Shown piece after piece: positions 9,990 through 40,823 of a stretch of 40,957 bases of DNA. Position 1 is the stretch's first letter. Each line of letters starts with the position of its first letter. The position numbers were made by a program, and so were the translations under genes. The stretch lies in the NCBI GenBank assembly GCA_030625085.1, contig DAOURK010000027.1, forward strand, positions 1 to 40,957, in the 5' to 3' direction. The notes under the pieces were generated by a model, which was given only the letters and a program-made list of their open reading frames with translations, did not search any database and was not told the origin of the DNA. Source of the stretch: Pseudomonadota bacterium (GTDB taxonomy: Bacteria; SZUA-182; DTGQ01).

Positions 9990-10070
9990 CTGATAGTAAC
10001 CAAGATATGGGTCAAACCCCAAACCATCAAGAAGGGAGGAAATTTTATTAAAAATCATTGTATAGCTTAA
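9990..10070 (-). pseudogene. cas1: Internal fragment of cas1 (CRISPR integrase)
   Basis: Twenty-seven codons read LSYTMIFNKISSLLDGLGFD followed by PYLGYYQ. The combination of an NxxxSYxxxxNxI-type helix and GLDPYLGYxH is a hallmark of Cas1. Nothing else of the ~320-residue protein is present: downstream the frame passes into the AlbA_2 fragment, upstream into the csx3-like remnant. It lies on the same strand as, and downstream of, the Csm operon, where an adaptation module could once have been. No cas2 was seen. Confidence 0.65.
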
Positions 10071-10331
10071 GGAAAGAAGGGCATTTGCCGAATAGCTGCT
10101 TCTACATTATTGATCCTGGCTTTCAGGGTGTTGATTTCAGGCTGTAAGTCAATTTCCCGGCCTTGCCGTGCAGGGCATGGGTCACGGCTAAATAGTGCCA
10201 CACAGGGGCTTTGCGGTTAGAATAACCTCATTGCCCTCTCCTGCCCTATCCAAGGCTTTATTGATATAATGGGGCAAATCAGCCAATTTAGCATTGTTAC
10301 TAAAAAACCCGGAAAGATCAATGGTAATCAT
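10067..10331 (-). pseudogene. Frameshifted csx3-like gene (probable cyclic oligoadenylate ring nuclease)
   Basis: ATG 10331 overlaps the TGA of the TM-CARF gene (ATGA), which indicates translational coupling. The first frame gives MITIDLSGFF... to EVILT and soon stops. Shifting by one base near 10213 continues KAPVWHYLAVTHALHGKAGK LTYS. The blocks 'sGKAPVWlY' plus 'HALHGKA..l.Y' match the Csx3 family, a ring nuclease that degrades cA4 in type III systems. A second shift is needed to reach the tail INTLKARINNVEAAIRQMPF, which does not look like Csx3. The gene is therefore broken in at least two places unless the assembly is wrong. Csx3 assignment rests on my recall of the motif, not on a search. 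Confidence 0.6.
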
Positions 10332-11269
10332 ATGCCTAATCCTTTAGTGTCCGAGGATGATAAAACAACATCATAACTGATGACCTTCCAGGGATCATTG
10401 GTTTGAACATATTGGGCTTTTATCTTCAGATTAAAGGTCATGGCCGCCCCCACTATGCTGGTTGGCTTCTGCCCGCCGGTAATATCAACCATAATATCCC
10501 TTTCTGAAAATCCCTTCCTTGCAGATTCTTGAAGCAACCTATCCATGGCTGATACTATTTCATCAAAATCCTCAAAATTATATCCTTGGAAATGGGTAAT
10601 ATCAGTTGCAGGGGATAATGGGATAAGGCGGCTGGTATGTTCTGATTTTTTGGCCAATAGGTAGAAGTTCTTCCCTTGAAGCTGCCGGTATTGTGTGCAA
10701 ATAGTAGAAAAATGGTTGATTTGGGAAATAGACTTTTTTGAGCAGATAATGGTCACTGTTTTTAAAGTATCCTCTTTTGAATGGTCCTTCTCCAAATGAT
10801 GCGCTATGGCCCGAAGCGGCATCTCCCACTGCCACCAAAAATTTTTTGCGTCTTTTCTTTTAAGGGATTCAATCTGCTGAATATCCTGATGAATATCCTC
10901 TGAAAGGGTTATCCATTCAGGAACACCCCCGGTTTTTCCTAAATCAGGGGGAAGATTTGAGAGAAACAATACCAGGTGCTTTCTTTTGTCTGTGGCCTGT
11001 TTTAGTCTCCTGGTGCGGGGAGGAAAGAATTCTCTTCTATTCCTGATGAGCAAATAAACCATAATTGTAAAAAAAAGGACATAGCCAAACCGCAATGGCG
11101 AAAAGCGCCCCCATTCACCGGTTATCCAAGCATCACCAGCCAGCCACACATCAATAGTGGCCATAATGGCCTCTGCAGCAAAATTAACACTGAGGGCAGT
11201 AAGCGCGGCAATAAGCCACGGCCGCCATTCGCGTAAGTTTAGCCGTCTACTTTTTCTCTTTTTGTTCAC
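10328..11269 (-). CDS. Membrane-anchored CARF-domain protein (TM-CARF, candidate type III CRISPR effector)
   Basis: From GTG 11269 the protein has 313 residues. After a very basic start (KKRKSRR) come two predicted membrane helices, at about 17-39 (WLIAALTALSVNFAAEAIMA) and 60-78 (FGYVLFFTIMVYLLI). A cytoplasmic CARF domain follows from about residue 97 (HLVLFLSNLP) with the ligand-loop motif VDITGGQKP at about 261-269. No nuclease motif was found. Known TM-CARF proteins such as Cam1 bind cyclic tetra-adenylate and disturb the membrane, so I infer a similar abortive-infection role. The longer open frame reaching 11395 lies inside the upstream CARF gene and is unlikely to be used. With GTG the two genes overlap by 23 bp. 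Confidence 0.8.
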   Translation of the reverse strand: MNKKRKSRRLNLREWRPWLIAALTALSVNFAAEAIMATIDVWLAGDAWITGEWGRFSPLRFGYVLFFTIMVYLLIRNRREFFPPRTRRLKQATDKRKHLVLFLSNLPPDLGKTGGVPEWITLSEDIHQDIQQIESLKRKDAKNFWWQWEMPLRAIAHHLEKDHSKEDTLKTVTIICSKKSISQINHFSTICTQYRQLQGKNFYLLAKKSEHTSRLIPLSPATDITHFQGYNFEDFDEIVSAMDRLLQESARKGFSERDIMVDITGGQKPTSIVGAAMTFNLKIKAQYVQTNDPWKVISYDVVLSSSDTKGLGI

Positions 11270-12209
11270 GGCGCTTCTTTTTTCGGCTTTTCGGCTTTCG
11301 CCAAACAACTTCAAAGGGGCTGGGTTGTTCTGTAAATTCCTCTGTTTTCTCCCAATGAAGTAAAGCCTTAAACAGGGGGGACTGAATGTGCTCAAGAATT
11401 TTCAGGCCGTATTCGGATAGTTCATTCTTGTGGCCGTCACGCACAATTTCACGCCCATCCATGCGGTTGAGATACCTTATTTTAAAATCCTGCAGGTCAA
11501 GATCATTAAATGAACTCACTTTTTTCAGTCTGCTCAAGCATTCTATATCTTCACACCACTCTTTTTTTTCAGCAAGAGTTTCTAAAACCTTATAATGGCT
11601 TGCGTCAAAATTTGTTTTCACAAAGGGGATTTCTCTCCAATCAAAAATTGTATTATCTAGGCTTGGCGGCTGAAGATAGTTACCATAATCTTCAACATCC
11701 GATAAAAACGTATAGTAAAGCCTGGCAATTCTTCCGCTTAAAAAAGCCACTTCCAGTAAGGCTGTATTGAGAATATTAGTGCCCCCGGTAAGATTGGCCC
11801 AGATATGTTTTCCCGCGTTTTGATGTGATAAATTCAATACAACCTCGGCAATTTTTTTAAAACAATCATTGTAATCATTGGGATTAACAACACATACTGA
11901 AAGGTCCCCTTTCTCAGGGATAATATCAATGAGTTCCTTTTCAATAAATTTTTTGGCCGCGGTAATTACATTGTAGTTTTCCCAGGGAGGGCCTGATTCG
12001 TTTATAGTTCCATATTGATTATTATGGCACTCTTTAACAGATGCAGCCCCATCAAATATTTCAAAGGATGTAAAGAGGATAACCGACTCAATAATGGAGC
12101 CCTTAACATCCGAAAAGGCCGCATTATCCTTATTATGCTTAAGATAAGATAAAGCCGAGGTTACTGCACCCGGCCTTTTCCCGATAGAAGCAAGATGAAC
12201 AACCCCCAT
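11247..12209 (-). CDS. CARF-domain protein with C-terminal winged-helix-like region
   Basis: A 320-residue protein with start ATG 12209, chosen because AAAGGTGA lies six bases upstream; a GTG nine bases earlier is the alternative. The N-terminal half is a CARF domain: GVVHLASIGKRPGAV at the start and the ligand loop HIWANLTGGTN at 135-145. The C-terminal half includes LNRMDGREIVRDG ... ELSEYGLKILEH, the spacing of a winged helix-turn-helix. The last 20 residues are very basic. It may be a cyclic-oligoadenylate-responsive regulator of the CRISPR locus (Csa3-like in layout), or another effector. No HEPN RxxxxH motif was seen. It lies immediately downstream of the array and overlaps the TM-CARF gene. 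Confidence 0.8.
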   Translation of the reverse strand: MGVVHLASIGKRPGAVTSALSYLKHNKDNAAFSDVKGSIIESVILFTSFEIFDGAASVKECHNNQYGTINESGPPWENYNVITAAKKFIEKELIDIIPEKGDLSVCVVNPNDYNDCFKKIAEVVLNLSHQNAGKHIWANLTGGTNILNTALLEVAFLSGRIARLYYTFLSDVEDYGNYLQPPSLDNTIFDWREIPFVKTNFDASHYKVLETLAEKKEWCEDIECLSRLKKVSSFNDLDLQDFKIRYLNRMDGREIVRDGHKNELSEYGLKILEHIQSPLFKALLHWEKTEEFTEQPSPFEVVWRKPKSRKKKRREQKEKK

Positions 12210-12309: not shown

Positions 12310-13811
12310 GCCGCAATCCCTTATTCATCAGGTCTCTGTTTCCGACAGTATAAGAAAGATCCTAAACTAGCTGTTCAAGTAGCTAAAGCGTCTCAATCCC
12401 TTATTCATCAGGTCTCTGTTTTCGATTTTTGTTTTTAGCCTTTTTCTAACCATCCAATATGCAATAGAGTCTCAATCCCTTATTAATCAGGTCTCTGTTT
12501 CCGACTTATAAGGAAATTTACTCTTCGCAACCAACGCTGTTTGAGGTCGCAATCCCTTATTCATCAGGTCTCTGTTTCCTACTATACTTGTTGGTCCTTA
12601 TGGCTGTATGCCGACCAAGATGTCGCAATCCCTTATTCATCAAGTCTATGTTCCCGACATTTCCTCATGATTGTGTAATGACAGCCATGCATGGGCCTCA
12701 ATCCCTTATTCATCAGGTCTCTGTTTCCGACGAAAAATAATGAGATTGTCATCATATTTTAAAATTTACGTCGCAATCCCTTATTCATCAGGTCTCTGTT
12801 TCCGACTTTTATAAAAATAGATGCTGTGACTTGAGGCGAGAAATTATTGAGTCGCAATCCCTTATTCATCAGGTCTCTGTTTCCGACGCTTTACTTGAAG
12901 CATTGGTAAAAGAAGTTTGGCAGTGAGTCGCAATCCCTTATTCATCAGGTCTCTGTTTCCGACTTTCAAGAAATATATGAAAGCGCAATGAAAGGATGCC
13001 ATCATTCGTCGCAATCCCTTATTCATCAGGTCTCTGTTTCCGATCCATTATTACGATCGATCAGAACATTGGTTTGCTAATCTGTCTCAATCCCTTATTC
13101 ATCAGGTCTCTGTTTCCGACGGCAAAACCGATGACGTTCCGGTCGGAGATGTTTTGTATCAGACGTCGCAATCCCTTATTCATCAGGTCTCTGTTTTCGA
13201 CTTAATAGACTATGACTATGTTAAGAACGCAATTCGGTGAGTCGCAATCCCTTATTCATCAGGTCTCTGTTTCTGACAAAATCGGAATTATGGTTTTTAA
13301 AGGTCTCGGTTATTACGTGTCTCAATCCCATATTCATCAGGTCTCTGTTTCCGACAAACTTCTTTCAGCCCGCATGGATGTTGCTGAGACCAAGTCGCAA
13401 TCCCTTATTCATCAGGTCTCTGTTTCTGACATACACGCTCGATCAAACCAAATTAATCGATTCGCAAATTAAAGTCGCAATCCCTTATTCATCAGGTCTC
13501 TGTTTCTGACACTTGATTTACTAATCATTAAAATAAAAGGTTCTGAGGTCGCAATCCCTTATTCATCAGGTCTCTGTTTCTGACTGCAAAGACTGTCCTG
13601 GTCGTCTTCTTTTGGGTAAGCAAGGAGTCGCAATCCCTTATTCATCAGGTCTCTGTTTCTGACTCCGTAATTGTCAATATAAAATTAATCCGCATATCCA
13701 CGTCGCAATCCCTTATTCATCAGGTCTCTGTTTCTGACAGTAAAAGAAAGAAAACATAGAGGATTTATGATTGAGTCGCAATCCCTTATTCATCAGGTCT
13801 CTGTTTCTGAC
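12310..13811 (-). CRISPR. CRISPR array, 20 repeats of 37 bp and 19 spacers (36-44 bp)
   Basis: On the plus strand the repeat begins GTCGCAATCCC, has core TTATTCATCAGGTCTCTG and ends TTTCCGAC; the ends GTCG/CGAC are complementary. Repeat starts: 12310, 12390, 12469, 12546, 12622, 12695, 12770, 12851, 12927, 13008, 13084, 13165, 13241, 13319, 13394, 13474, 13548, 13627, 13702, 13775. I infer transcription from the minus strand. There the repeat ends GGGATTGCGAC, parallel to the usual ...GGGATTGAAAC, giving the 8-nt crRNA handle ATTGCGAC. The degenerate copies (4, 5, 6) lie at the low-coordinate end, as expected for the trailer. The cas genes are also on this strand. Repeats 13 and 15-20 read TTCTGAC instead of TTCCGAC. 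Small ORFs through the array are not genes. Confidence 0.99.
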
Positions 13812-14147: not shown

Positions 14148-15380
14148 TCAACCAGCTTCAATCTTCACCCAGCCAAGCAAGGTTACCGGGTTCTCTTGTG
14201 CATCAATTGCAATCCTTCTTGTTTTGGGAAATTTTTCAGGATTAATGTTCACTCTCGGCTTCAATAGTTTTACCCCACAGGGTATGGTTTCCTCATATAA
14301 TTGGCTGTCATCAAGTAACATTTTTAAATTTATGGTTGTTCCAAGAAAACCCTGTCCCGCGCCCAAGCGAAGGAGTGGCGCTGAAGGTTGATTTTCCCTC
14401 TCCAGGCGATCTATTTCGCCGAGTATTTGACTGTTGCCGCTAAAATATTTTTTTTCCTCCTGCAGTAAATCCTTTGCTCTCTGAAAACATGCCCTTAAAA
14501 TTCTGCCCTCGGAAAGCCAATCCTCCTTTTCTTTTAATTTCAATACATCTAAAGAAAAATTATTCAAGGTTGAAAGCTGAAACTGAAATTTTGTATCGGG
14601 CTTTATGGCCTCTAACCACATTTTCGTGTTCCGCCTGGTGCCGAGGGCCTTGGTAAGCTCTATTTTTAAACAGCCGGACTCTTTAGCACAGGTGTCGCCA
14701 ATAGTAACAAATTTTAAAAGATCACATTTGGCATCCTTTTCTTTTCCCCTGAGGAGATTTCGCTCTAAGCCCTTTTCTTCCTGTGGGCCTGCCATTTTTT
14801 TAAATTGCTTTTTCTTTTCTTTAAAGTCCAGCTCCTTACTATTCAGGGTTGACTTCAATTCAAGGTAGGCTGATTGAAGCATCTTGTATTCTTGATCCTC
14901 TTGGAGCATATCATGGAGAATTGAGGTGCGCAGGGCGCCTTTTATCTCAGAGCCGGGTATATAGGGCCGCTTCTGTATGTCCTTAAGATGGGTTTTGAAG
15001 CCGTCACGCCGTAGCCTGCAAGTACAATCAATTTGGTAGGCGGAACATTTCTGGGCAAAGTGTGCAGGGTCTTGTCGCAGTTTATTTTCGATGAACCAGC
15101 CGAGGGAAAGTTTCCCCTCTTCAAAGGATTTTTGTCTGAATAATTCGGGATTGTGTTTTCCGGCCCTTTTGGTTTGGGCAATTTCTTCTTCGATTTGGGC
15201 TGCATCGCGTAGGATTTGATTTATCCATTGCATATAATAATCCCTCTGAAGGGGGGTGAGCAGGCGAAAAAATTTACTCATATGAAGAACAGTAAGCACA
15301 TGGCCGTCTACAATATAGGAGAGGGGTTTTAGACTCTCCCCATTTCCAATGTGGACAGGGGTTAGGGTTTTTAATTTCAT
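14148..15380 (-). CDS. csm5: Csm5, type III-A RAMP subunit capping the Csm filament
   Basis: A 410-residue RAMP protein that caps the 3' side of the crRNA in the Csm complex. Visible Csm5 landmarks are LTPVHIGNGESL at residues 5-16, RPYIPGSEIKGALRTSIL, and the C-terminal glycine-rich loop LRLGAGQGFLGTT. The middle is long and rich in Lys/Glu (about 185-225), which is variable in this family. It starts two bases after the csm4 stop and is the last gene of the csm run. Confidence 0.93.
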   Translation of the reverse strand: MKLKTLTPVHIGNGESLKPLSYIVDGHVLTVLHMSKFFRLLTPLQRDYYMQWINQILRDAAQIEEEIAQTKRAGKHNPELFRQKSFEEGKLSLGWFIENKLRQDPAHFAQKCSAYQIDCTCRLRRDGFKTHLKDIQKRPYIPGSEIKGALRTSILHDMLQEDQEYKMLQSAYLELKSTLNSKELDFKEKKKQFKKMAGPQEEKGLERNLLRGKEKDAKCDLLKFVTIGDTCAKESGCLKIELTKALGTRRNTKMWLEAIKPDTKFQFQLSTLNNFSLDVLKLKEKEDWLSEGRILRACFQRAKDLLQEEKKYFSGNSQILGEIDRLERENQPSAPLLRLGAGQGFLGTTINLKMLLDDSQLYEETIPCGVKLLKPRVNINPEKFPKTRRIAIDAQENPVTLLGWVKIEAG

Positions 15381-15382
15381 TT

Positions 15383-16525
15383 TCAGTCTCCAATCCTGGC
15401 CATTACCGGCAGGGCTAAGCCGTTTCTGTAAATTTTCTCATGTGCCGGGGCTGTCCCGGTATATTCTACCGGCTCAATCCGGCCATAACATTCTTTCTCT
15501 TCCCGCAAAGGGAAGACCGAGCCTTCAGCGAACATACGCAAAAGAGTATTGGAGATGAATTTTCCTTGTGCGGCGTGCATAACTTCACGTCTCGGCCTTT
15601 GATTTAAAAGGGTCCATGCAGCAGCAGCGCCCTCACACACTATTCTTTCCTTATCTTTCGGAAACCAGCGGGATAGTATGATGAAGGAATCAGGTTCTTT
15701 TGCTTTAGGAAGCTGATAAGGTTTATCATCACAGATAATCATAAAATGTCCCTTGCCGGAGGTCCTCTCTCCCCCTATTCCTGTATCTTCAAGGTAGCGA
15801 AAAAGGGGCTTTAAAAAATCAATATTATCTGTTTTCACTAAGAACCAAAGTCCACCGCCGGGTCTGGTGAAGAGTATTTCGTCATTATAGTAAAGGAGCC
15901 CTTCAGCAGCGCTGCCGGATAATCTGTCAACCTGCGTGTGTAAAACATCAGTCTTTGTCCAAAGGCAGGGCATCTTTTGATCAGGGTCAATCTTTTCGCG
16001 CTCGGCTAAGGAAATTAAGCTGTCGCCCATCTGCTCAATATCATTTTCCATAATCCCTTTCGTCTTTAGCCGCCCATATAAATCCTTTGGGCCAATGGTC
16101 CCTTCGACTATTCCTCGAAATATGGCTTCCGATACATAGGCAATTTTTTTTAACTCCTTTACTCTTCCGCAAATAAAAACCATTTGCCGCTTAAACGCCG
16201 GGCTTTTTCTGTCTGAGGAAACTTCGCCTGCCTGATGAATTGCCAACTGCTGAATAGCATCGCTGTTTAATTCCGGCATCAGGGGCTTGGGGTAAAATCT
16301 AATGCACCGGCCCTCCTCATGCCAACAAGGGAAGGCCGAGCTGAGAACAAACGGCGGCGGGCCATTCTGTTTATCGCCTTCAACAAATTCGGCCAGGACC
16401 TTCTTTAGTTCCTCTCTGCCGTAAACATGTCTGATGGCCCAACACAATGCGCCAAAAAGGGTGTCCGAGGCAGGCCAGGAAATAAGAGAGGATAATGGTT
16501 TCAGGTGAACTGCATAGGTTCGCAT
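15383..16525 (-). CDS. csm4: Csm4, type III-A RAMP subunit holding the crRNA 5' handle
   Basis: A 380-residue product from ATG 16525 (MRTYAVHLKPLSSLI...). In known complexes Csm4 binds Cas10 and the 5' handle of the crRNA. The N-terminal ferredoxin-like fold shows SWPASDTLFGALCWAI, equivalent to the conserved 'ssdtLfgal' segment, and the glycine-rich loop GIGGERTSGKGHF lies near the middle. AAGGAG stands 11 bases before the chosen ATG; the ATG eight codons earlier lies on top of that site. It overlaps the csm3 end by 25 bp, so the two are translationally linked. Confidence 0.92.
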   Translation of the reverse strand: MRTYAVHLKPLSSLISWPASDTLFGALCWAIRHVYGREELKKVLAEFVEGDKQNGPPPFVLSSAFPCWHEEGRCIRFYPKPLMPELNSDAIQQLAIHQAGEVSSDRKSPAFKRQMVFICGRVKELKKIAYVSEAIFRGIVEGTIGPKDLYGRLKTKGIMENDIEQMGDSLISLAEREKIDPDQKMPCLWTKTDVLHTQVDRLSGSAAEGLLYYNDEILFTRPGGGLWFLVKTDNIDFLKPLFRYLEDTGIGGERTSGKGHFMIICDDKPYQLPKAKEPDSFIILSRWFPKDKERIVCEGAAAAWTLLNQRPRREVMHAAQGKFISNTLLRMFAEGSVFPLREEKECYGRIEPVEYTGTAPAHEKIYRNGLALPVMARIGD

Positions 16526-17397
16526 TTTTCTATTATCTCCTTTACACAACCAAGGCCGGCAATAGTTGTAACGATCTCATCCTTTTCCTGCTCAGGTTTT
16601 TTCCCTGTTCGATAATATTCGATCGAGCGAAACTCCACCTCTTCCACCTGAAATTTTATCCGGCCGCTGCCCCTTGTGCCTGATCCACCCAAAGCGCTGT
16701 CCTCAAGAAGGTGCATGGCTGAAAAAAGGTTTTGGAGCAAGGCCCTATCCTGATTGCGGTAAATATCAAAAATGATCTCAAAGGAAAAGATTGAGCCTGC
16801 CGGAACTCTCTCCATGGTCCTCGGGTTTGCTTCGGAGGTTACCCTGTCTATGGAGTTTTCTGTTTTTAGCTCAGTATAGATATTCTCCCCCATCCAGTTT
16901 TGCCATTTCCAAAGAGTGGTGTCTTTGGGAGGTTTGTTCGGATTTTCAATTCCCGTGGGGAAGGCATCCCTCACCGTCAGCCGCGTAGGAGCGCCCCCGG
17001 CTGAGGCGCCGAACATACAACAGATTGGACAAGTGCTTATAAACTCTTTGAGCTTTTTGTCTTTTTCCTCCTGCCTTTTATTATTATCAAAGGACTCAGA
17101 CTCAAGGCTCTTTTCGAAATCTTTCATTTCCTTACTATTTTCGCAGGAATGGGCGGGAAATTTCTTCTTATCATCTCTATCAGGAAAGACCAGATTTAAC
17201 TGCCATTCCGACAAATGTCTGAGTTTTCCCTTCAGAGACGACCCCGGTATGTAAGGAATAGTGGTAAGAGGGTCCCGGATGACAATATTATCAACCCCGC
17301 CAATTTCCACACCTTCCTGTGTCCCGCCAATATGTAAACCGGATTCACAGATAATTTTCCCTTTTATCAGATACTTGCCCTGCAATTGAAGATCCAT
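16501..17397 (-). CDS. csm3: Csm3, backbone RNase of the type III-A complex
   Basis: A 298-residue RAMP subunit that forms the filament backbone and cuts target RNA at 6-nt intervals. The catalytic Asp is present as Asp36 in EIGGVDNIVIRDP (equivalent to D33 of studied Csm3), followed by TTIPYIPGSSLKGKLRHL. CPICCMFG is the zinc-binding segment with two adjacent Cys, and GGSGTRGSGRIKF is the C-terminal glycine loop. Its ATG shares one base with the csm2 stop (TAATG). Slow target cleavage is expected to be intact, which limits the duration of cOA signalling. Confidence 0.95.
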   Translation of the reverse strand: MDLQLQGKYLIKGKIICESGLHIGGTQEGVEIGGVDNIVIRDPLTTIPYIPGSSLKGKLRHLSEWQLNLVFPDRDDKKKFPAHSCENSKEMKDFEKSLESESFDNNKRQEEKDKKLKEFISTCPICCMFGASAGGAPTRLTVRDAFPTGIENPNKPPKDTTLWKWQNWMGENIYTELKTENSIDRVTSEANPRTMERVPAGSIFSFEIIFDIYRNQDRALLQNLFSAMHLLEDSALGGSGTRGSGRIKFQVEEVEFRSIEYYRTGKKPEQEKDEIVTTIAGLGCVKEIIEKCEPMQFT

Positions 17398-17849
17398 TAG
17401 ACATTTCCTCCCTCTTTTTCCTTTTCCCTATATTTATAGTAAGCAAGAAGGGCAGTTAAAAAATTTATCAGTGTTTTCAAGTCTCCCACAGTGTTAAGTC
17501 GCTGAGGATCAAGGCACAAACACATAAGCTCGTAAAATTTTTGGGGGATTAATTTTCTGCCGCGGGCATAGGCAAGATCGGGTAAATAGAGAAATATGGC
17601 GTCCCTGGTTTTTTTATCAAGCTCTGCCTCTTCACCCTTGCCACCCTCCATTCTTTCTTTTTCCTTGAGGGTATGGAAAAATTTTCGCAATTGGGTTACC
17701 TTCATCTCCTTTTTTTTTAAAAACTGTGAGGCAAGTTCATCCGCCACCTGCCCCCTTGCGGCAAATTGAGCGGGAGATAAAAGCACACTGAGGGGTTTTG
17801 GTTGTTTTAAAACAGCAATTATTGTATCTTTATTCAGTTCTTCTCCCAA
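17397..17849 (-). CDS. csm2: Csm2, small helical subunit of the type III-A complex
   Basis: A 150-residue, largely alpha-helical protein forming the inner filament along the crRNA-target duplex. The helix TQLRKFFHTLKEKERM and the segment IFLYLPDLAYARGRKLIP...FYELMCLCL match the family pattern. The start is a TTG at 17849, supported by AAGGAG nine bases upstream within the last codons of cas10. The out-of-frame ATG nearby would not give this protein. The gap to cas10 is six bases. Confidence 0.9.
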   Translation of the reverse strand: MGEELNKDTIIAVLKQPKPLSVLLSPAQFAARGQVADELASQFLKKKEMKVTQLRKFFHTLKEKERMEGGKGEEAELDKKTRDAIFLYLPDLAYARGRKLIPQKFYELMCLCLDPQRLNTVGDLKTLINFLTALLAYYKYREKEKEGGNV

Positions 17850-17855
17850 AGGTCA

Positions 17856-20438
17856 TCACTCCTTTCTTGTGATAAGGCTTATATAGGATACTGGTATTTT
17901 CATCTTTTTTCTTTTTATTATGGAAAAGGCTGTTGTTTGTAAATAGCCCCTGGCCTTTTCATCTTTTACTCTCCTGACCAGGGCGTATAGAAAATGCGGC
18001 ACCCACATGATATTGCCTTTCTTTTCAAAGTATTTGTCAAGCAGGCCCAGATAATAAACAAATCCTTTTGGTACTGGCTTTTCCCCGGTTTCAACATACT
18101 CTTGAAGGGTATGGGTAAAATCCAGTACCTCGTTAAAAGAAGGTGTCCCCGGTCTGCCTCCCCAGGGAAGGGTCTCCCCAAATAAAGTAATTCGGTCCTT
18201 GGCCTTTGGTTCCCCTTGATTCCCTCGCCCTTGGTCATTACCCTGTTTCCTGTCATTATCCTGTTTTGATTTCTCCAATTCCTCAGAGACCAGATGGGCA
18301 AACCTGTGAATGGGGAAATGCGGTCGCACAAAGAGAATGCCCGCTGACAGCGTTACATTCGGATTGTGGCAGGTAAATGATCGAAAATCCTCATAAATCC
18401 TGTTGGCCAGTTTAATGGTTTGGTCCCAGGGGCCGATAATGAAAAGATCATCACCACCGGAATAAACAATATAAAAAAGGCTCACGACTATGCCCTTCAG
18501 CTCCTCCGGTGCCTGATTTTCATCCCACTTATGGGTAAGGTCCCGGCAAAGAAAATTCAGCCATCCATTAAAGAACATTTCAAAATTGCCGCTCAAGGTG
18601 GCCAGACGTGAAATAGAGCATTGATCAAGCCCTAAACTAAAGAGTAAGCCAAGATAATCAACATCCATTTTCAGCACGCCAAGATACTTTGCTCCCGTGC
18701 TCAGGGCAGCCATTTGTTCAAATTCCAAAACGTCGCCTTTTTTGGTCGGTTGATCTGAGGAGGAATTTTTTGGCCAATCTTTACAAGCCAAAGGGGCGGC
18801 ATTTCCAAAAAATTTAAAACCAAAGGAAATAGGTTGTTCAGCTAAATTTTCCTCAATAAAATCAAGCCCGGCCTCTTTTCCTTCTTCTTTTCCTTTTTCA
18901 TTTTCAGGATTGATTCGATACAAACAGCATCTTGCATTCATCTTTTTGGAAAGCATCAGCTTTACATCATTTTTATCCTGAAGGGCGACTGTAAGGTTGC
19001 TAAATTTTTCAAAAGAAATGGTAAAGCCGGGGATGTTTTGGACAGGGCCATAGATAAAAGAAAGGTACTTTTTTTTGGGCAGATAGCGGCCAATGTCCCG
19101 GTGAATAGTGCAGACTACGCACATCGGCTCATAGGCTTGGATGGCCGCAATGCGGCAGGAAGGACACATATCCGCTATTTTTTCCGTTGCTTTAAAGAAA
19201 TCGTCCCGGCCCATGAGCCCGGCAAATTTACGAGCTTTTTTCTCAAGGAGACTATCTTCTGCTTTCCTATAAACAGAGCTGAAATCAAAGAAATCAGCAG
19301 GAGCGATCTCAAGACAAATTGTTTGAATGCTCAATTCTCCCTTAAAATTTTTAAAAAGCCAGGTATCAACTTCTTTTTGCAAAAGGTTTATTCTTTCTTG
19401 AATTTTTGGGGTCTTTGGCAATAAAAGATCAAACCTGCCCCCGGCGCTGAAAAGAATATTGGTAATGGGCATGTTTAACTCTTTGGCCATCCAATCGGCA
19501 ATCACCTCTGTGAGCAATGAAAGATAGAAGGACCGGCCCCGCAATCTTTTTGAAGTGCCTTTGGTGTCTCCCCTTGGGCTGGTAATGCTATAGATGAATT
19601 TTTGTATCCCGGCTATATCAGCCCGAAGAAAAAGAAATAAGGGGTTTGGCCGAAGGGATGAGTCGGTTGGGGCCCTCTTGCTTTCAGATGATTTATCTTT
19701 ATTTTCTCCTTCATGGGTTTCATGTTGCTGTAAAGAACTGACTAAATCAGCCAGTTGGGTATTGGAAAATTCCTTTTCGGTAAAGGCTGCAAGACATGCT
19801 GCTATGGCGCAGGTAACCTTGGTATGATCGAACAGGGATACGTCCGGCGATGTGCGATTAAATTCTCCTTTTTCCCATGGGGTGGCGGAAGGCATCAGGC
19901 TTCCCATTTCCTTGAGAATAAAATATAGGGTGGTAAAATCATGCTCTTGGAAGGGCGCCAACCTATTGGCTTTTTCAACAAAATGCCGCCGGATATTGTC
20001 ATATTCACCTTTTTTAACCTGCCCTGATGAATCTTGGGGTTGAGGAAACAGGGCTTCTTTGTTAATCTGCAAAGTGCCCGGTTTATAATACCCTGCCTCT
20101 CCCTTTTCCCTTATTAATTGTAATCTTGAAGTAATGGCCGACAGGGCAGCTCCATTGGCTGTAATATGGGGATGTTCTACATACCTGTCCCCCGCAGTGG
20201 CCAAAGTATCGGCAAGATAGAGGATACTTTGGGCTCGGCCGGATGGACTATCAAGGATGCCGGCAATAAGATCCGCTATGGCGGCTGTATCGGAAGGGCC
20301 AAATAATGACGTAAAGGAGGAGAGGAAATTTCCCCTAAACTCTCTTTGTCGGGCAAAGTACCCCTCTTCCTCTCTAAGGGATATCTTGCCTATATCATGC
20401 AGCAAGGCTGCCAGCATAATGATTTGTGTAAAATCCAT
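17856..20438 (-). CDS. cas10: Cas10/Csm1, signature HD-nuclease and cyclic oligoadenylate synthase
   Basis: An 860-residue large subunit. The HD nuclease motif is His14-Asp15 in LLHDIGK (ssDNase). A zinc-ribbon is formed by C425-x2-C428 and C440-x2-C443. The first Palm lies before it (RADIAGIQKFIYSIT). The second Palm has the intact cyclase motif GGDD at 661-664 (YSGGDDLFI). Both the ssDNase and the ATP-to-cOA activity are therefore predicted to work, which fits the two CARF proteins downstream. ATG 20438 is preferred over an earlier in-frame Met because AAGGGGG lies about ten bases ahead and the HD motif then sits at the usual distance from the N-terminus. The C-terminal half contains a low-complexity Gln/Asn/Gly linker around 730. 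Confidence 0.96.
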   Translation of the reverse strand: MDFTQIIMLAALLHDIGKISLREEEGYFARQREFRGNFLSSFTSLFGPSDTAAIADLIAGILDSPSGRAQSILYLADTLATAGDRYVEHPHITANGAALSAITSRLQLIREKGEAGYYKPGTLQINKEALFPQPQDSSGQVKKGEYDNIRRHFVEKANRLAPFQEHDFTTLYFILKEMGSLMPSATPWEKGEFNRTSPDVSLFDHTKVTCAIAACLAAFTEKEFSNTQLADLVSSLQQHETHEGENKDKSSESKRAPTDSSLRPNPLFLFLRADIAGIQKFIYSITSPRGDTKGTSKRLRGRSFYLSLLTEVIADWMAKELNMPITNILFSAGGRFDLLLPKTPKIQERINLLQKEVDTWLFKNFKGELSIQTICLEIAPADFFDFSSVYRKAEDSLLEKKARKFAGLMGRDDFFKATEKIADMCPSCRIAAIQAYEPMCVVCTIHRDIGRYLPKKKYLSFIYGPVQNIPGFTISFEKFSNLTVALQDKNDVKLMLSKKMNARCCLYRINPENEKGKEEGKEAGLDFIEENLAEQPISFGFKFFGNAAPLACKDWPKNSSSDQPTKKGDVLEFEQMAALSTGAKYLGVLKMDVDYLGLLFSLGLDQCSISRLATLSGNFEMFFNGWLNFLCRDLTHKWDENQAPEELKGIVVSLFYIVYSGGDDLFIIGPWDQTIKLANRIYEDFRSFTCHNPNVTLSAGILFVRPHFPIHRFAHLVSEELEKSKQDNDRKQGNDQGRGNQGEPKAKDRITLFGETLPWGGRPGTPSFNEVLDFTHTLQEYVETGEKPVPKGFVYYLGLLDKYFEKKGNIMWVPHFLYALVRRVKDEKARGYLQTTAFSIIKRKKMKIPVSYISLITRKE

Positions 20439-20538
20439 TGTTTTATTCCCCCTTATTTGGTCCCTGCATAAATAATAAAATAACAATTCCTGCTATAGAT
20501 TTTCAGATATCATCAACTCATCAGCTTACCAGCTTACT

Positions 20539-21498
20539 TTATGTAACTTCGTACTTCCCCAACCCGAAACTGCTCCCTTTGCCAATATGCACAAATTCCC
20601 CCAGCCGGATATATGGCCAAAAGGGTTTAAGGTCCCCTTGAAAGCGTGCTTCTCCAATAAACCCGCCCATTTTCATACGCGAACCCTGCCTGGTGGAATA
20701 CCGCTCCCAATCATTCCAAAAAAGTTTGCGGAATACAGTTTTAATTTGTTTTGCCTCCTCAATGAGGGTCTTAAACCCTTTATTGTCGAGCTTTTCTCCA
20801 CAATGAAAATAAGAAAGCAAAGAGATGCGGCGCAATAAGTTTCTAAAGAAGATGTGAAATTCAATATTCTTGATCAGTTTGTTTTCATATTTAATTCTGG
20901 TTGGGGTAAGAAAGTTTAAGCAAATCTCTTTTGGACTTTGATCATCAACTATATCCTGCCATACAATAGGGTAAGCGGAATCAGCCAGGGTTTTATTCTC
21001 TCCCTGATAAATGACCTTTTTTATGGGGCCGGCTTTTGACGCGCAATTTCCAGGCATTTCCTCGATTACTCTAAGCAGTTGATATTTCCCCTTACCTTTG
21101 CCAAGCCCATGGCGACCAAGTTCTTCAAAGGTATAAATAAAGTAGGGGAGATAATCCACTGCCCTTCCGATAAGCACCAAACCAAAAGAGAGTTCTTCTT
21201 CATTTTGATAGGCCCTCTGCGTTTCCAGCGGCGGCTCAATAATGAAGGGATGTGGGGCGGCGGTATATTTTCGCATCATCAGCGCCTCTTTTGGTATTGG
21301 TGTCTCAAAGACCCAGGAATACACGCACTGCTGCCGCAAGGAGCAACTCGTGCATTGACTGCTTTTGGTCACACACATTATGCGCCGGAAGGTATGGCCG
21401 AAACCGCCTCGCAAGGCAAAGCCTTTATAGGCGGGGAGAAGAAGAGTGGTTTCTCCTTTAATAAAAAATAGAAATCTTGAAAAGAAAAATGTACGCAT
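20539..21498 (-). CDS. cas6: Cas6, CRISPR repeat endoribonuclease
   Basis: A 319-residue RAMP-fold RNase that cuts the pre-crRNA within each repeat, leaving the 8-nt handle used by Csm. A Cys cluster CVTKSSQCTSCSLRQQC around residues 42-58, common in this Cas6 branch, is followed by FEELGRHGLGKGKGKYQLL and the C-terminal glycine-rich loop HIGKGSSFGLGKYEV. It is the first gene of the minus-strand locus; 100 bp separate it from cas10. No good Shine-Dalgarno sequence was seen at ATG 21498. Confidence 0.92.
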   Translation of the reverse strand: MRTFFFSRFLFFIKGETTLLLPAYKGFALRGGFGHTFRRIMCVTKSSQCTSCSLRQQCVYSWVFETPIPKEALMMRKYTAAPHPFIIEPPLETQRAYQNEEELSFGLVLIGRAVDYLPYFIYTFEELGRHGLGKGKGKYQLLRVIEEMPGNCASKAGPIKKVIYQGENKTLADSAYPIVWQDIVDDQSPKEICLNFLTPTRIKYENKLIKNIEFHIFFRNLLRRISLLSYFHCGEKLDNKGFKTLIEEAKQIKTVFRKLFWNDWERYSTRQGSRMKMGGFIGEARFQGDLKPFWPYIRLGEFVHIGKGSSFGLGKYEVT

Positions 21499-21853
21499 TT
21501 TATCGCCTATTCTTTTCCAAGGATTAGCCAGTGGAGATGGATTTATGACAAATTCACTATTAGAGTAATATTAATATGAAATTCAATTCTTTTCAAGAAA
21601 TAAGTTTCATTTTGAATAACAAAAGATTATTTATCCAAATTTGCTGTTATTTATGCCGATTTCATGCCGAGAAGATCGAGAAGCCGAGAAGCAATTATCC
21701 TTGACGAATTAAAATATTGCCTTTAAACATAGTCAGTATGATTAAGGGTATCGATTATGATAAGTGGCTGCAACCCGGCATTAAAAAAATGAAAATCCCT
21801 GGTAATATAAATTTATTTTGAATTTTTATCAAAATCAGATAAAATATTGTATT
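21499..21853. other. Divergent intergenic region between cas6 and the Rpn-type gene
   Basis: Probably holds the promoter of the cas operon (minus) and that of the Rpn gene (plus). A plus-strand TTGACG at about 21701 is the only good -35-like hexamer; its -10 partner is poor. No palindromic operator or further gene was recognised. Confidence 0.35.
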
Positions 21854-22801
21854 ATGAGTAAAGAAAACTTTTTCCATGATCATGGTTACAAGTATCTCTT
21901 TTCCAATCCAACCTTAGTGCGATATCTGATCACCACCTTTGTAAAAGAGGATTGGGTAAAAGATATCGACTTTACCAGGATGGAAAAACTTGATAAGGAA
22001 TTTATAGGCGAGGAATACGATCGAAGAGAATCGGATATTATCTATAAGGTAAGCTTTCAGGGAAAAGAAGCTTATATATTCTTGCTGATAGAGTTTCAAT
22101 CCGAGGTGGATCGATTTATGGCTTTGCGGGTTTTGCACTATATTTGCAAATTTTATCTTGATTTATTGGAGCTTCATAAATATAAGATACTTCCTCCTGT
22201 TTTTCCGGTTGTGCTTTATAATGGGAATGAGAGGTGGTCGGCGCCTGTTGAAATAGAGAACCTTATTGAAAATGTTAAGGGTTTAGAGGGGTATGTTCCG
22301 AAATTTAAGTATTGTAAAATAGCTGAAAATGAATATTCAAAACAGGAGTTGGAGAAGGTAAAAAATTTGATATCAGCCCTGTTTTATATTGAAAACAGCT
22401 CGGCTGAAGAGATTCAAAAGGCCCTTGGCCAGATTGTTGATATTATAGCAAGTGAGCAAGACAAATCTGCGGTTAAAAGATTTATTATCTGGTTTAAGAA
22501 CCTGGCCGAGAGAAAGCAATTAAAAGGTGAACAGGGCGAAGATTATACTTTTTATAATCCATTGGAGGTGAAAAATATGTTATCGGCAACCTTGGATAAA
22601 ATAAGAGAAGAGGGAAGAAAAGAAGGAAGAAAAGAGGAAGTTATTGGCCTTTTGAAAATATATCTTTTGGCTCGTTTTACTGAGGCGCCGGAGGAAATTA
22701 TGGAGGCGTTGAGGATGAGGGAAAGTATTCAAGAATTAGAAAGCTTGGCTACGAAAATTTATCAATGTCAAAGCCTGGAAGAAATAACCAAGGTTTTATA
22801 A
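21854..22801 (+). CDS. Rpn family recombination-promoting nuclease / putative transposase (PD-(D/E)XK)
   Basis: A 315-residue protein of the PF04754-type family, known in E. coli RpnA-E to nick DNA and raise RecA-independent recombination. It starts KENFFHDHGYKYLFSNP, the usual beginning, so ATG 21854 is preferred over the ATG 12 codons earlier. The nuclease core shows RRESDIIYKVSFQGKEAYIF and LLIEFQSEVD (the acidic D and E-x-Q residues). The tail has REEGRKEGRKEE, a charged helix frequent in this family. A terminator follows after a MITE-like insertion. It stands next to the CRISPR locus and may mark mobile-element history rather than a function in immunity. Confidence 0.88.
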   Translation: MSKENFFHDHGYKYLFSNPTLVRYLITTFVKEDWVKDIDFTRMEKLDKEFIGEEYDRRESDIIYKVSFQGKEAYIFLLIEFQSEVDRFMALRVLHYICKFYLDLLELHKYKILPPVFPVVLYNGNERWSAPVEIENLIENVKGLEGYVPKFKYCKIAENEYSKQELEKVKNLISALFYIENSSAEEIQKALGQIVDIIASEQDKSAVKRFIIWFKNLAERKQLKGEQGEDYTFYNPLEVKNMLSATLDKIREEGRKEGRKEEVIGLLKIYLLARFTEAPEEIMEALRMRESIQELESLATKIYQCQSLEEITKVL

Positions 22802-24076: not shown

Positions 24077-24140
24077 CATTTGGGGATTTAGGCAATATTG
24101 CCTAAATCCCCAAATGAAAAAAAGGGGACAGTCCCCTTTT
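24077..24140. repeat. 40-bp perfect palindrome followed by a second REP-like hairpin
   Basis: CATTTGGGGATTTAGGCAAT (24077-24096) is followed directly by its exact reverse complement (24097-24116). Just after it, AAAAGGGGAC-A-GTCCCCTTTT (24120-24140) forms a second perfect stem with a one-base centre. The GGGGACAGTCCCC core resembles REP-type extragenic hairpins, which are often moved by TnpA-REP transposases. It lies 37 bp before the truncated HU gene. Confidence 0.85.
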
Positions 24141-24772: not shown

Positions 24773-26296
24773 ATGAATCATAATGATCAAATACAAAAGT
24801 GGGCAACTATAATAGTAGCTGGAATTGGTCTTATAACTTTAATTGCGGGGGCAATTTGGGTTAACATTAAGATAATGGATAACATAGGAGATAATGTTAC
24901 AACTAATGTGCGAACGGAGCTTGATAGAGGCTTCAAGAAGATGGATAACATGGTAAATAATGTTACAGCTAATGTGCGAACGGAGCTTGATAGAGGCTTA
25001 AAGAGGATACATGAAGATATGCGAGCGGAGCTTGATAGAGGCTTAAAGAGGATACATGAAGATATGCTAGCGGTCCTCGACAAGAGAAATAAAGAGATGC
25101 TAGCGAACCTCGACAAGAGAAATGAAGAGATGCTAGCAGAGCAAAATAGAAACTTCGATAGGATAAATGGAGGCTTGGCAAGAATCACTGAAAATGAAAG
25201 AAGATCTAATACCTTATTTAATGCCCATTGTTCATGTATATTAAGTGATATAGAATATGACCTAACCGCGCTAATGGAGGATTTCTCGTCGCGTTTGCCT
25301 GATCCTGAATCATTAGACCAATTGCAGAAGTATTATAGAATTGTAGAGCAGATGCTCAGACTTATTAATATTGAGTACACATCGGAAAGGTGTAAGTTCC
25401 AGATTTTTTCTAATATCTTCCAAATTATGAAAAGTGTAAAGCTTTTAAAAGACGATTTGGATAGACTGGATCTACTACCTCCAATAGATCGAGATAAAAA
25501 AATTACGTCTGTTATAAATCATTGGGAAAATATGAATATCTCTTTGCTCCTAGAATCCAATGATCAAGATTTTATTAATAAGGTAAACGCATGGCGCTTT
25601 AATGCAATGGGGGTTCTATATTTATTGAAATATAGAAAGACAAAACCCAGAGATACTGATATCTTTAAATTAGCTATAGCTAGATTTATTGAGGCAAAGA
25701 ATGCTAATCCTCGTTACTCTCGGCCACATTGTATGCTCGCAGTGGCTAATTCATACAAGTTTAAGCGATCCCTTGAAAAATTTAAAGAAGATCCAAATGA
25801 TGAGAATGTCAAAAAAGAATTGGAGAATTATTTGATAAATGGCCGTGACGTTCTTGAAGGTTGTAGAATGGCATCGACTGATCGTGCTCTTAGCACTTTT
25901 TTTAATCTAAGAGCTAACTTTTATATATTAGAATCAGAATTATATAAACCAAATGATCCAAATAAGGTATTATCATTCCTTAATGATGCCCAGCTCGAAA
26001 TTGAAAAAGTAGAGAACCATGCACAAATTCATCCCGTTATATATATAACAAAGGCGCAAATTCTATGTCATATGTTAGATATCAGGAAGGTTATAGAACA
26101 ATTAGATGTTAAAAAAAAAGAGGATTGGCGTGATGAAATCCTAAGATTAGTTAGCTTTGCGCATGGAGCTGACTTTAAATTCGAAACAAAAAATAAAAAA
26201 GAATTTTTTAAAAAATACCCATTTTTCAGTTATCTCGACAAATTAGGTATTCCATATGGGGAAAGTCTTCTCAGCAAAGCAGGAATCCAAACCTAG
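24773..26296 (+). CDS. Membrane-anchored coiled-coil protein with C-terminal helical-repeat (TPR-like) region, function unknown
   Basis: 507 residues, with GGAG seven bases before the ATG. One membrane helix at about 11-31 (TIIVAGIGLITLIAGAIWV) is followed by a coiled coil to about residue 140 made of short repeats. ELDRGLKRIHEDM occurs twice, with a third variant ELDRGFKKMDNM. LDKRNKEML / LDKRNEEML form a second type. The DNA of these repeats is nearly identical, which indicates recent expansion. From about 240 the sequence is all-helical with TPR-like segments (ARFIEAKNANPRYSRPHCML). The protein probably exposes the helical part to the cytoplasm on a stalk. No enzyme motif was seen. It could be a scaffold or a defence-associated sensor; I cannot say which. 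Confidence 0.75.
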   Translation: MNHNDQIQKWATIIVAGIGLITLIAGAIWVNIKIMDNIGDNVTTNVRTELDRGFKKMDNMVNNVTANVRTELDRGLKRIHEDMRAELDRGLKRIHEDMLAVLDKRNKEMLANLDKRNEEMLAEQNRNFDRINGGLARITENERRSNTLFNAHCSCILSDIEYDLTALMEDFSSRLPDPESLDQLQKYYRIVEQMLRLINIEYTSERCKFQIFSNIFQIMKSVKLLKDDLDRLDLLPPIDRDKKITSVINHWENMNISLLLESNDQDFINKVNAWRFNAMGVLYLLKYRKTKPRDTDIFKLAIARFIEAKNANPRYSRPHCMLAVANSYKFKRSLEKFKEDPNDENVKKELENYLINGRDVLEGCRMASTDRALSTFFNLRANFYILESELYKPNDPNKVLSFLNDAQLEIEKVENHAQIHPVIYITKAQILCHMLDIRKVIEQLDVKKKEDWRDEILRLVSFAHGADFKFETKNKKEFFKKYPFFSYLDKLGIPYGESLLSKAGIQT

Positions 26297-31350: not shown

Positions 31351-31393
31351 TCGCTTTGCCTCATCTTTACCTCTTCTTAATCTATAAAAGATA

Positions 31394-31550
31394 GTCTCGT
31401 AAAAAGTCGTTTTTGGTAAATTTGTCATTTCGACCTCAGGGAGAAATCTTATATTTTTCAGCATGTTGTGTAATAAAGATTTCTCACAGGAGTTTACAGT
31501 GAACTTAGTGAATCTGTTCGAAATGACACGTTGATGAGACTTTTTACGAG
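31394..31550. repeat. Palindromic repeat, copy A, inserted between hydG and hydD
   Basis: Ends CTCGTAAAAAGTC (31396-31408) and its exact inverse GACTTTTTACGAG (31538-31550). The inner pair is GTCATTTCGA / TCGAAATGAC. The interior is nearly identical, in inverted orientation, to copy B at 34818-34975. Non-coding. It separates hydG from hydD by about 200 bp where the operon genes otherwise touch or overlap. Confidence 0.85.
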
Positions 31551-31554
31551 TTCA

Positions 31555-32382
31555 TCATAAAAGAGTATCTGCAAATCGAGAAATATCCGAGTACTGAAAA
31601 ACCGGTCCATCTTGACACACAAATTTAGCCCCGATTTGACAATGACCGCAGTGTCCTGTACCGCAACGCATCCTCCTTTCTAATGAAACATAAATTTGAT
31701 CCCCTGCGTACCCCTGAAATAAAAGATTTCGAGCTACAAAACGCATCATAATCTCCGGACCACAAAGAAAGGCCAGAGTATTTCGATAATCCAATTCTAA
31801 CTTTTCCAAAAACCGGGTCACTAATCCCACCTGAAGTCTTAACGAAGATTCTTTGTTATATTGATCCACGCAATAGATAGTTTCTATATCATCCCGTGCC
31901 TGCCAATCGGCTAAATCTTTTGCAAAAACCATATCATCCGTTGTTCTGGCCCCATACACTAAAACCACGTCCCTTATTCTATTTCTGTTTTCCAAGCAAT
32001 AAAAAAGAAAGGACCTCAGAGGCGCCAGACCTATACCCCCGGCTACAATCAACAGATCCTTGCCTATAATTTCCTCAATGGGCCATCCTCGACCAAAAGG
32101 CCCACGGAATAATACTCTGCGGCCAATCTCAAGCCTTTCTAAAAATCGAGTTACATTCCCTACACCGGCTATGGTATGAGTGAATTGATTACTCCCTGGT
32201 ATAGCCAAAGAGCTAAAGGAAATCGCCGCCTCCCCTACCCCGGGCAAACCGATCATATTAAATTGTCCGGGTGAAAACCGGAAAATTTTACTCTCAACAC
32301 AGGTGAATAGATAGGATTTGATAGCGGCCGTTTCCATTTGAATATCCAAAACTTGAGCCATTTGGTAATCTATACTATCCAT
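31555..32382 (-). CDS. hydG: Hydrogenase gamma subunit, FAD/NAD(P)-binding reductase
   Basis: A 275-residue ferredoxin-NADP+ reductase-like subunit passing electrons between the iron-sulfur chain and NAD(P). FAD-binding part: RFSPGQFNMIGLPGVGEAAI. Nucleotide-binding part: LLIVAGGIGLAPLRSFLFY. The C-terminal cluster motif RRMRCGTGHCGHC ... CQDGPVF binds [2Fe-2S], as in related dehydrogenase subunits. ATG 32382 overlaps the hydB stop by eight bases and is preferred; a GTG at 32403 is an alternative. The copy-A repeat begins four bases after its stop. Confidence 0.93.
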   Translation of the reverse strand: MDSIDYQMAQVLDIQMETAAIKSYLFTCVESKIFRFSPGQFNMIGLPGVGEAAISFSSLAIPGSNQFTHTIAGVGNVTRFLERLEIGRRVLFRGPFGRGWPIEEIIGKDLLIVAGGIGLAPLRSFLFYCLENRNRIRDVVLVYGARTTDDMVFAKDLADWQARDDIETIYCVDQYNKESSLRLQVGLVTRFLEKLELDYRNTLAFLCGPEIMMRFVARNLLFQGYAGDQIYVSLERRMRCGTGHCGHCQIGAKFVCQDGPVFQYSDISRFADTLL

Positions 32383-34613: not shown

Positions 34614-34817
34614 AATTTTCCCTTTTCTCGATCAAAACTAAAATTTTTGGCTTCCCACGATCTTGTCTTTTTTCCCTCCGCTCCTTTTACCTACCCTTAA
34701 CCGGCGGAAGAGAAGAGTTAGCTCTAATGTAAATTCACCCCTAATAAAAAATATCTTAATTCTCGGGAGATATAAAAAATTATTATGACAGGAAAATATG
34801 AAAATCAATAATTGATG
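34614..34817. other. Upstream region of the GAF-hydrogenase operon
   Basis: Likely contains the promoter (minus strand) of the GAF-hyd gene run. AT-rich, no ORF. A convincing promoter pair was not found. Confidence 0.3.
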
Positions 34818-34975
34818 GTCTCGTAAAAAATCTCATCTAAATGTCATTTCGAACAGATTCACTAAGTTCACTGTAAACTCCTGTGAGAAATCTTTATCGC
34901 ATAACATGCTGAAAAACATAAGATTTCTCCCTGAGGTCGAAATGACAAATTTACCAAAAAGGACTTTTTACGAAT
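34818..34975. repeat. Palindromic repeat, copy B, upstream of the GAF-hydrogenase run
   Basis: Same family as copy A, opposite orientation. The ends CTCGTAAAAAATC (34820-34832) and GACTTTTTACGA (34962-34973) are inverted repeats. The interior shares long identical runs with copy A, such as AACAGATTCACTAAGTTCAC. The two copies bracket GAF, hydB and hydG as inverted repeats. Confidence 0.85.
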
Positions 34976-34995
34976 GCATCTTATTTGGTATCCTA

Positions 34996-35387
34996 AAAAA
35001 TGAAATCTTTTTAAACGCATCTACTCTAAACCTGAGGAGGTATTCTTAGGAAATTGAACAGCAAAGCAAATATCGCTCCCTGTATCACCCAGCCAATCAG
35101 GCATACACCTACAGCGCGCCAGGAGCTTTTGTAATCCAAAGCCTGACGCACGGCAATAATCATAGCTACTAACATATAGACAGCAGCCACAAAATTTACA
35201 AGTATCGATAGCCCCGGGATAATTCCAAGTACCCGAATAAGACCTGGGGAACTGGAAAAGCCAATAGTGCGCAATAGTTCCCCAAGGTCGGAATGTGTTT
35301 GAGGCTCCGGTAGTATCCGAGTACCGATGATATACGTCAACCAAGCCCAGATATACCAACTAATAAGAGCACCAATGGTTATAATTA
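34996..35387. repeat. 392-bp duplicated block, original copy
   Basis: Matches 40432-40823 without gaps (constant offset 5436) and with roughly eight substitutions, about 98% identity. It covers the last two thirds of the YIP1 gene and 30 bp beyond its stop. This copy is the source because the gene here is complete. Confidence 0.95.
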
Positions 35388-40431: not shown

Positions 40432-40823
40432 AAAAATGAAATCTTTTTAAACGCATCTACTCTAAACCTGAGGGGGTATTCTTAGCAAGTTGAACAGCAA
40501 AGCAAGTATCGCTCCCTGTATCACCCAGCCAATCAGGCATACACCTACAGCGCGCCAGGAGCTTTTGTAATCCAAAGCCTGACGCACTGCAATAATCATA
40601 GCTACTAACATATAGACAGCAGCCACAAAATTTACAAGTATCGATAGCCCCGGGATAATTCCAAGTACCCGAATAAGGCCTGGGGAACTGGAAAAGCCAA
40701 TAGTCCGCAATAGTTCCCCAAGGTCGGAATGTGTTTGCGGCTCCGGTAGTATCCGAGTACCGATGATATACGTCAACCAAGCCCAGATATACCAACTAAT
40801 AAGAGCACCAATGGTTATAATTA
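40432..40823 (-). pseudogene. Duplicated 3' part of the YIP1 gene, 5'-truncated
   Basis: About 98% identical to 34996-35387 with no gaps. It encodes the last ~120 residues of the YIP1 protein ending LLRIPPQV at 40462. At 40823 homology stops abruptly and unrelated sequence follows (frame continues QVFVGSYILLPMALGSM in reverse order only as chance coding). The N-terminal helices are missing, so it is a non-functional copy. It starts 22 bp after the nifJ stop. Confidence 0.9.

Follow-up and report, generated by a model that had tools for sequence, protein, structure and literature searches.

How does a type III-A CRISPR-Cas locus respond to infection when it carries a Cas10 expected to make cyclic oligoadenylates (cOA), no Csm6/Csx1 nuclease and, in its place, two overlapping CARF genes? 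The question is raised by a 40,957-nucleotide stretch of DNA (hereafter, the window; contig DAOURK010000027.1 of assembly GCA_030625085.1, Pseudomonadota bacterium), for which an earlier note, made from the sequence alone, had proposed that a soluble and a membrane CARF protein act as a paired system. Here, we report a computational analysis of both genes, their neighbours and their relatives in other genomes.

Gene content of the type III-A locus

In transcription order, the minus strand carries cas6 (20539..21498; Pfam CRISPR_Cas6, E value 1.6e-22; PADLOC Cas6, 3.4e-108), cas10/csm1 (17856..20486; TIGR02578, 7.8e-157, above the curated cut-off), csm2 (17397..17849; Pfam Csm2_III-A, 1.5e-14), csm3 (16501..17397; TIGR02582, 2.8e-60, above cut-off), csm4 (15383..16549; TIGR01903, 6e-46, above cut-off), csm5 (14148..15380; TIGR01899, 2e-32, above cut-off), a CRISPR array, the soluble CARF gene and the membrane CARF gene (TM-CARF). 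The array (12310..13811; 20 repeats of 37 nt, GTCGGAAACAGAGACCTGATGAATAAGGGATTGCGAC, detected by repeat scan) lies between csm5 and the CARF genes. With cas10/csm1, csm2 to csm5, cas6 and an array all present, the locus is assigned to type III-A. Cas10 has both an HD motif (LLHDIGK) and GGDD, so both DNase and cyclase activity are expected; judged by motif, it is expected to be able to make cOA.

The earlier note's description of an intact GGDD Cas10 in a III-A locus lacking Csm6/Csx1 held up. No CARF-HEPN gene and no HEPN domain with RxxxxH was found in the locus, and PADLOC CARF-HEPN models aligned to the CARF regions alone of the two proteins, never to the HEPN part. Across the whole genome, the Csm6/Csx1 model matched these two CARF regions and one further, marginal sequence (E value, 0.0135). 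A HEPN domain was also sought in the tail of either CARF protein, and none was found.

Other features of the window were recorded in passing. A Rpn/YhgA-like PD-(D/E)xK recombination-promoting nuclease gene adjoins cas6 (21818-22801, plus strand; Pfam, 4.3e-28). A perfect 20-bp palindrome (24077-24116) lies shortly upstream of a 507-aa open reading frame (24773-26296, plus strand), the 5' part of which contains degenerate tandem repeats of 33 to 66 nt. Direct repeats of 300 nt (34996-35295 and 40432-40731; 98% identical, 5.4 kb apart) and inverted repeats of 170 nt (31388-31557 and 34813-34982; 91%) are likely the ends of mobile elements.

The two CARF proteins and the broken csx3

Both overlapping reading frames that the earlier note had placed at 10328-12209 are there, and both are CARF genes by PADLOC profiles; Pfam and NCBIfam CARF models score both proteins only under their cut-offs. 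Against the sister-genus orthologs, protein identity is 83 to 86% and dN/dS is 0.17 (soluble CARF) and 0.15 (TM-CARF), so the open reading frames are not chance; both genes are intact and under purifying selection.

The soluble, CARF3-type protein (11247..12209, minus strand; 320 aa) starts at the ATG at 12209, as had been noted; this codon is preceded by a ribosome-site-like AAAGGTGAT and is also the start of the ortholog in the sister genus. A promoter scan around the gene start gave nothing beyond chance. Its PADLOC matches are CARF3--CARF (1.1e-18), CARF3--CARF_TM (3.7e-14) and Csa3 (4.6e-5); weak matches to G-alpha proteins in a PDB profile search were taken as chance. Motif II (NLTGGTN here) is TGGTN or TGGPN across the family, and motif I is ASIG, without GTS. 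CARF ring nucleases require GTS and a motif-II Lys (PMC10018336), and with GTS missing and N in place of Lys, ring nuclease activity was disfavoured. Since the catalytic motifs are missing, the protein is probably a sensor and not an off-switch; the most likely role, read from sequence, is that of a cOA sensor acting through its tail as a regulator.

That tail (residues ~200-290) had been described as winged-helix-like, a description that survives in part. The tail aligns across four family members and has a dN/dS of 0.11, making it a genuine conserved part of the protein, and the family alignment shows a conserved wing-like pattern. A Pfam search of the tail alone returned no HTH family, and the structure prediction for the protein (two-sequence alignment; pLDDT, 38) was unusable. 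A winged helix is plausible but unproven.

TM-CARF (10328..11269, minus strand; 313 aa) most likely starts at the GTG at 11269, because the sister-genus ortholog has an ATG at the same residue; from this start, the overlap with the soluble CARF gene is 23 nt, versus 148 nt for the mechanically called frame. TM-CARF is a member of a known PADLOC class, "CARF, 2 TMs" (CARF8_TM), with scores of 4.9e-30 (TM+CARF), 1.3e-24 (CARF8_TM) and 2.6e-23 ("CARF, 2 TMs"). The two membrane helices and the VDITGGQKP loop of the earlier account were located at residues 19-37 (TM1) and 57-75 (TM2) by hydropathy, with model helices at 2-43 and 58-76, and at residues 261-269, respectively. Basic residues precede TM1 and follow TM2, so both the N and C ends should be cytoplasmic.

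The AlphaFold2 model of TM-CARF (alignment of 8 sequences; pLDDT, 75) resembles Cam1, in agreement with the proposal of a Cam1-like membrane effector without a nuclease motif. The six best PDB matches by Foldseek were all Cam1, the cA4-bound form included (best E value, 2.7e-5; TM-score on the target, up to 0.66); by sequence alone, the match to Cam1 is weak (E value, 0.018). Cam1 contacts its ligand through Y180, T183 and K160, and its pore position 17 tolerates D, N or S (PMC10808066). By profile alignment, Y180 corresponds to Y287 (11/11 homologs) and T183 to T290 (10/11), and K160 and the invariant K268 of TM-CARF share the TGG loop, offset by one residue. Position 29, in TM1, a possible counterpart of Cam1 D17, is N here and N, S or D in 9/11 homologs. 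TM-CARF is a predicted, Cam1-like membrane effector.

Downstream, a csx3/crn3 ring nuclease gene (10138..10331, minus strand) and a Cas1 remnant (9990..10137, minus strand; ALSLSYTMIFNKISSLLDGLGFDPYLGYYQKGRPG...) were identified; the earlier inventory, accurate for the CARF pair, had overlooked both (~10331-9990). The csx3 start overlaps the TM-CARF stop by ATGA. An intact frame of ~80 aa is missing: the gene is frameshifted after about residue 42 (residues 1-42 in frame 1, residues 38-65 in a shifted frame) and ends at about residue 65 of 79, the last ~14 residues being absent. The two pieces match the PADLOC Csx3-fusion model (3.9e-9 and 4.6e-8) and are 69% and 68% identical to the intact ortholog, and DNA alignment places the lesion. 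The Cas1 remnant (Pfam Cas_Cas1, 2.3e-5, above cut-off; PADLOC Cas1, 1.3e-6) is a scrap with no intact frame. The locus contains no reverse transcriptase, and no second csx3 copy was found elsewhere in the window genome. The csx3 lesion is known from one draft assembly and could partly be sequencing error, although the scrap of Cas1 and the absence of the csx3 3' end speak against error alone. Both the ring nuclease and the adaptation genes have been lost from the window locus.

The sister-genus locus (G003; JAUWIR010000313.1) runs from the array through soluble CARF, an insert of 1.2 kb, TM-CARF and intact Csx3 (79 aa) to reverse transcriptase. The soluble CARF protein there is 12 residues shorter, and both CARF frames are still open despite the insert, which (L009:1438-2700) encodes two small minus-strand open reading frames (106 and 85 aa) with the appearance of a toxin-antitoxin pair. 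Further along (L009:4749-4785, plus strand), the reverse transcriptase frame enters a degenerate CRISPR repeat copy (5/37 mismatches), which suggests recombination with an array. This draft genome yielded no full-length III-A Cas10 (best score, 46.8 bits), so co-occurrence of the pair with a GGDD Cas10 is confirmed in the window alone; the genome does contain a separate Csx1 and further traces of type III.

Distribution of the two genes and competing explanations

Both CARF genes were found together in the window genome and in one sister genus only. Outside the window's family, the soluble CARF gene is present in 0/11 genomes with TM-CARF, and TM-CARF in 0/2 genomes with soluble CARF; most of these genomes are drafts, so single absences are weak, but the overall pattern is not. 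A genome-contig scan identified further TM-CARF loci in a Brocadiaceae metagenome-assembled genome (MAG), two deltaproteobacterial MAGs, and Aquificaceae, Acidobacteriota and Leptospirillum MAGs, and whole-genome searches found no soluble CARF in any of these six MAGs. For the scan, motif variants were added to the alignment by hand to guide the search patterns; since every locus was then verified by tblastn using the window protein, the additions touch the reach of the scan, not the identity of the hits. Among 395 genomes of the phylum of one of these MAGs (that of locus L012), six carry TM-CARF (E value, <1e-15; one, G011, already counted) and two carry soluble CARF (G237 and G151), never together. 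A class-level search around G151 returned G151 itself only, and plasmid tblastn and viral-contig scans returned no relatives of either protein. When the profiles of the two CARF families were compared, only a short stretch at the TGG motif aligned, without significance (probability, 3.5%). Obligate pairing was rejected on the whole-genome searches, and the paired system envisaged in the earlier note was not supported, as the two genes are dissociated elsewhere. The two genes do occur as a pair, but so far within one small lineage, and both proteins, as that note had required, are CARF proteins found near type III loci and come from known families.

Each gene has usual neighbours of its own. 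Csx3 directly follows TM-CARF in six loci (the window, where it is broken, L010, L011, L012, L013 and L033), hosted by the window genome, the sister genus, the Brocadiaceae MAG and three genomes of the deltaproteobacterial group. All five loci with intact Csx3 have a reverse transcriptase downstream, and on contigs that extend far enough (e.g., L033) Cas1 comes next; in L035, Csx3 and RT-Cas1 share the locus with TM-CARF without being adjacent. The Cas10 of the Brocadiaceae locus (L011) is III-D-like (Cas10d, 2.9e-42), so the TM-CARF/Csx3 cassette crosses subtypes. A repeat in the same locus (L011:11435-11471, plus strand) differs from the window CRISPR repeat by at most 6 mismatches, which is consistent with joint transfer of cassette and array. 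More distant TM-CARF genes adjoin a Csx1-HEPN gene (L014) or a CARF-only gene (L032), and in L016 the neighbours, named by their sequences, appear to be a DUF1874-like ring nuclease and a Card1-like protein. The CARF-only protein, encoded just upstream of TM-CARF in a III-B-like locus (L032:9060-9671, plus strand), is related to 2-TM CARF models. Soluble CARF3 genes occur in III-A loci, directly after csm5 in G237 and one gene away, and frameshifted, in G151; the G151 locus also encodes an APE2256-like CARF protein with a winged-helix-like tail, upstream of cas10 (L024:16815-17630, minus strand). With such separate neighbours, the window locus looks like two joined modules.

The reading that we prefer, at a probability of about 0.62, is that module shuffling joined a Cam1-like, cA4-gated membrane effector to a III-A CARF sensor and that the ring nuclease was lost. 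One module would be TM-CARF, normally in a cassette with Csx3 and RT/Cas1; the other would be the CARF3 sensor with its winged-helix-like tail, encoded shortly after csm5 in III-A loci. Upon target binding, Cas10 would make cA4, which the cytoplasmic CARF dimer of TM-CARF, anchored in the inner membrane, would bind; the helices would then open a small pore, the infected cell would depolarise and growth would stop, as with Cam1. The soluble CARF protein may read the same signal and act via its tail. With csx3 dead and the adaptation genes gone, the membrane effector would work without its usual off-switch. The favoured ligand is cA4, because this is the substrate cut by Csx3/Crn3, the usual partner (PMC12409355); conservation of the putative ligand-contacting residues points the same way. 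Within this account, the families and the dissociation of the pair are given with high confidence, the tail and its function with less.

A true two-part system, in which both proteins bind the same messenger and touch and the soluble CARF controls TM-CARF or its transcription, would explain the 23-nt gene overlap and the retention of both genes in two genera at high identity and low dN/dS, and TM-CARF also lies beside another CARF gene in L014 and L032. The adjoining CARF families vary from locus to locus, however, neither gene predicts the other outside the family, and in the sister genus the two genes are 1.2 kb apart and both open, with the soluble CARF shortened; we regard such a system as unlikely. 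Less probable again is a functional unit of soluble winged-helix sensor and two-helix pore that replaces control by Csx3, with one pulse of cA4 both opening the pore and reprogramming transcription, so that depolarisation would be hard to reverse in a lineage without the ring nuclease. A touch more doubtful still is that the soluble CARF is itself a replacement off-switch, a Crn1-like CARF ring nuclease that makes Csx3 dispensable: the sole locus seen with a broken Csx3 does carry the gene, and the Crn1 protein Sso1393 is a CARF-wHTH protein (PMC8699464), but motifs I and II of the soluble CARF differ from those of ring nucleases as described above, and the sister genus has soluble CARF alongside an intact Csx3. 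We give least weight to an accessory arm that has been decaying since the loss of adaptation and Csx3, with the CARF genes as relics. The frameshifted Csx3, the scrap of Cas1 and the missing reverse transcriptase are what such decay would leave; set against it are the intact CARF frames, Cas10 HD and GGDD motifs and csm genes, and the dN/dS of 0.15-0.17, though this is an average over all of the divergence between the two genera.

No new class of system is revealed, and loss of the cassette's Csx3/Cas1 end tells more about the locus than the pairing does. That TM-CARF is repeatedly linked to Csx3 and RT/Cas1 in III-A, III-D-like and other backgrounds predicts a cA4 ligand and shows a cassette of sensor-effector and off-switch moving among type III subtypes. 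A lineage that has kept the effector and lost the ring nuclease would be a natural test of the purpose of the off-switch.

Comparison with known systems

The proposed architecture of the soluble CARF protein is that of Csa3, a CARF-wHTH regulator (PMC8699464 and PMC8844856), and neither has the motif-II Lys of ring nucleases. Assignment to Csa3 was nevertheless rejected: profile scores are far under cut-off (TIGR01884, 16.9 bits versus 60.2; Csa3_N, 19 versus 27), motif II has N versus Arg98 in Csa3, and linkage is to III-A versus I-A. Crn3/Csx3 adjoins TM-CARF as a frameshifted and truncated remnant here and as an intact gene in relatives.

TM-CARF shares two N-terminal TM helices and a C-terminal CARF domain with the PADLOC models CARF8--CARF_TM, "CARF, 2 TMs" and "TM+CARF" (PDLC01947, PDLC01168 and PDLC01053); the strong profile matches span most of the protein, and no clear difference was found. 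Two-helix CARF membrane proteins, except for the divergent Cap1, appear to be without experimental characterisation in the literature consulted. Cap1, from a P. terrae type III-A locus (PMC12642688), likewise has two TM helices, a cOA-binding domain and a Csx3-like ring nuclease in its locus. It differs in its divergent CARF-like fold and C-terminal DUF4579, whereas TM-CARF ends after a canonical-looking CARF domain and has no Pfam match to DUF4579.

Closest in predicted structure is Cam1 of Nitrosococcus halophilus (PMC10808066; PDB 8T64-8T66), also a membrane-anchored CARF protein without a nuclease. The putative equivalents of Y180 and T183 are conserved in TM-CARF, and Cam1-type proteins, too, often accompany other CARF effectors (PMC10808066). 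Cam1 has one TM helix and 206 aa versus two helices and 313 aa here; because Cam1 has a single helix, TM-CARF is predicted, from sequence and model, to work like Cam1 rather than to be Cam1.
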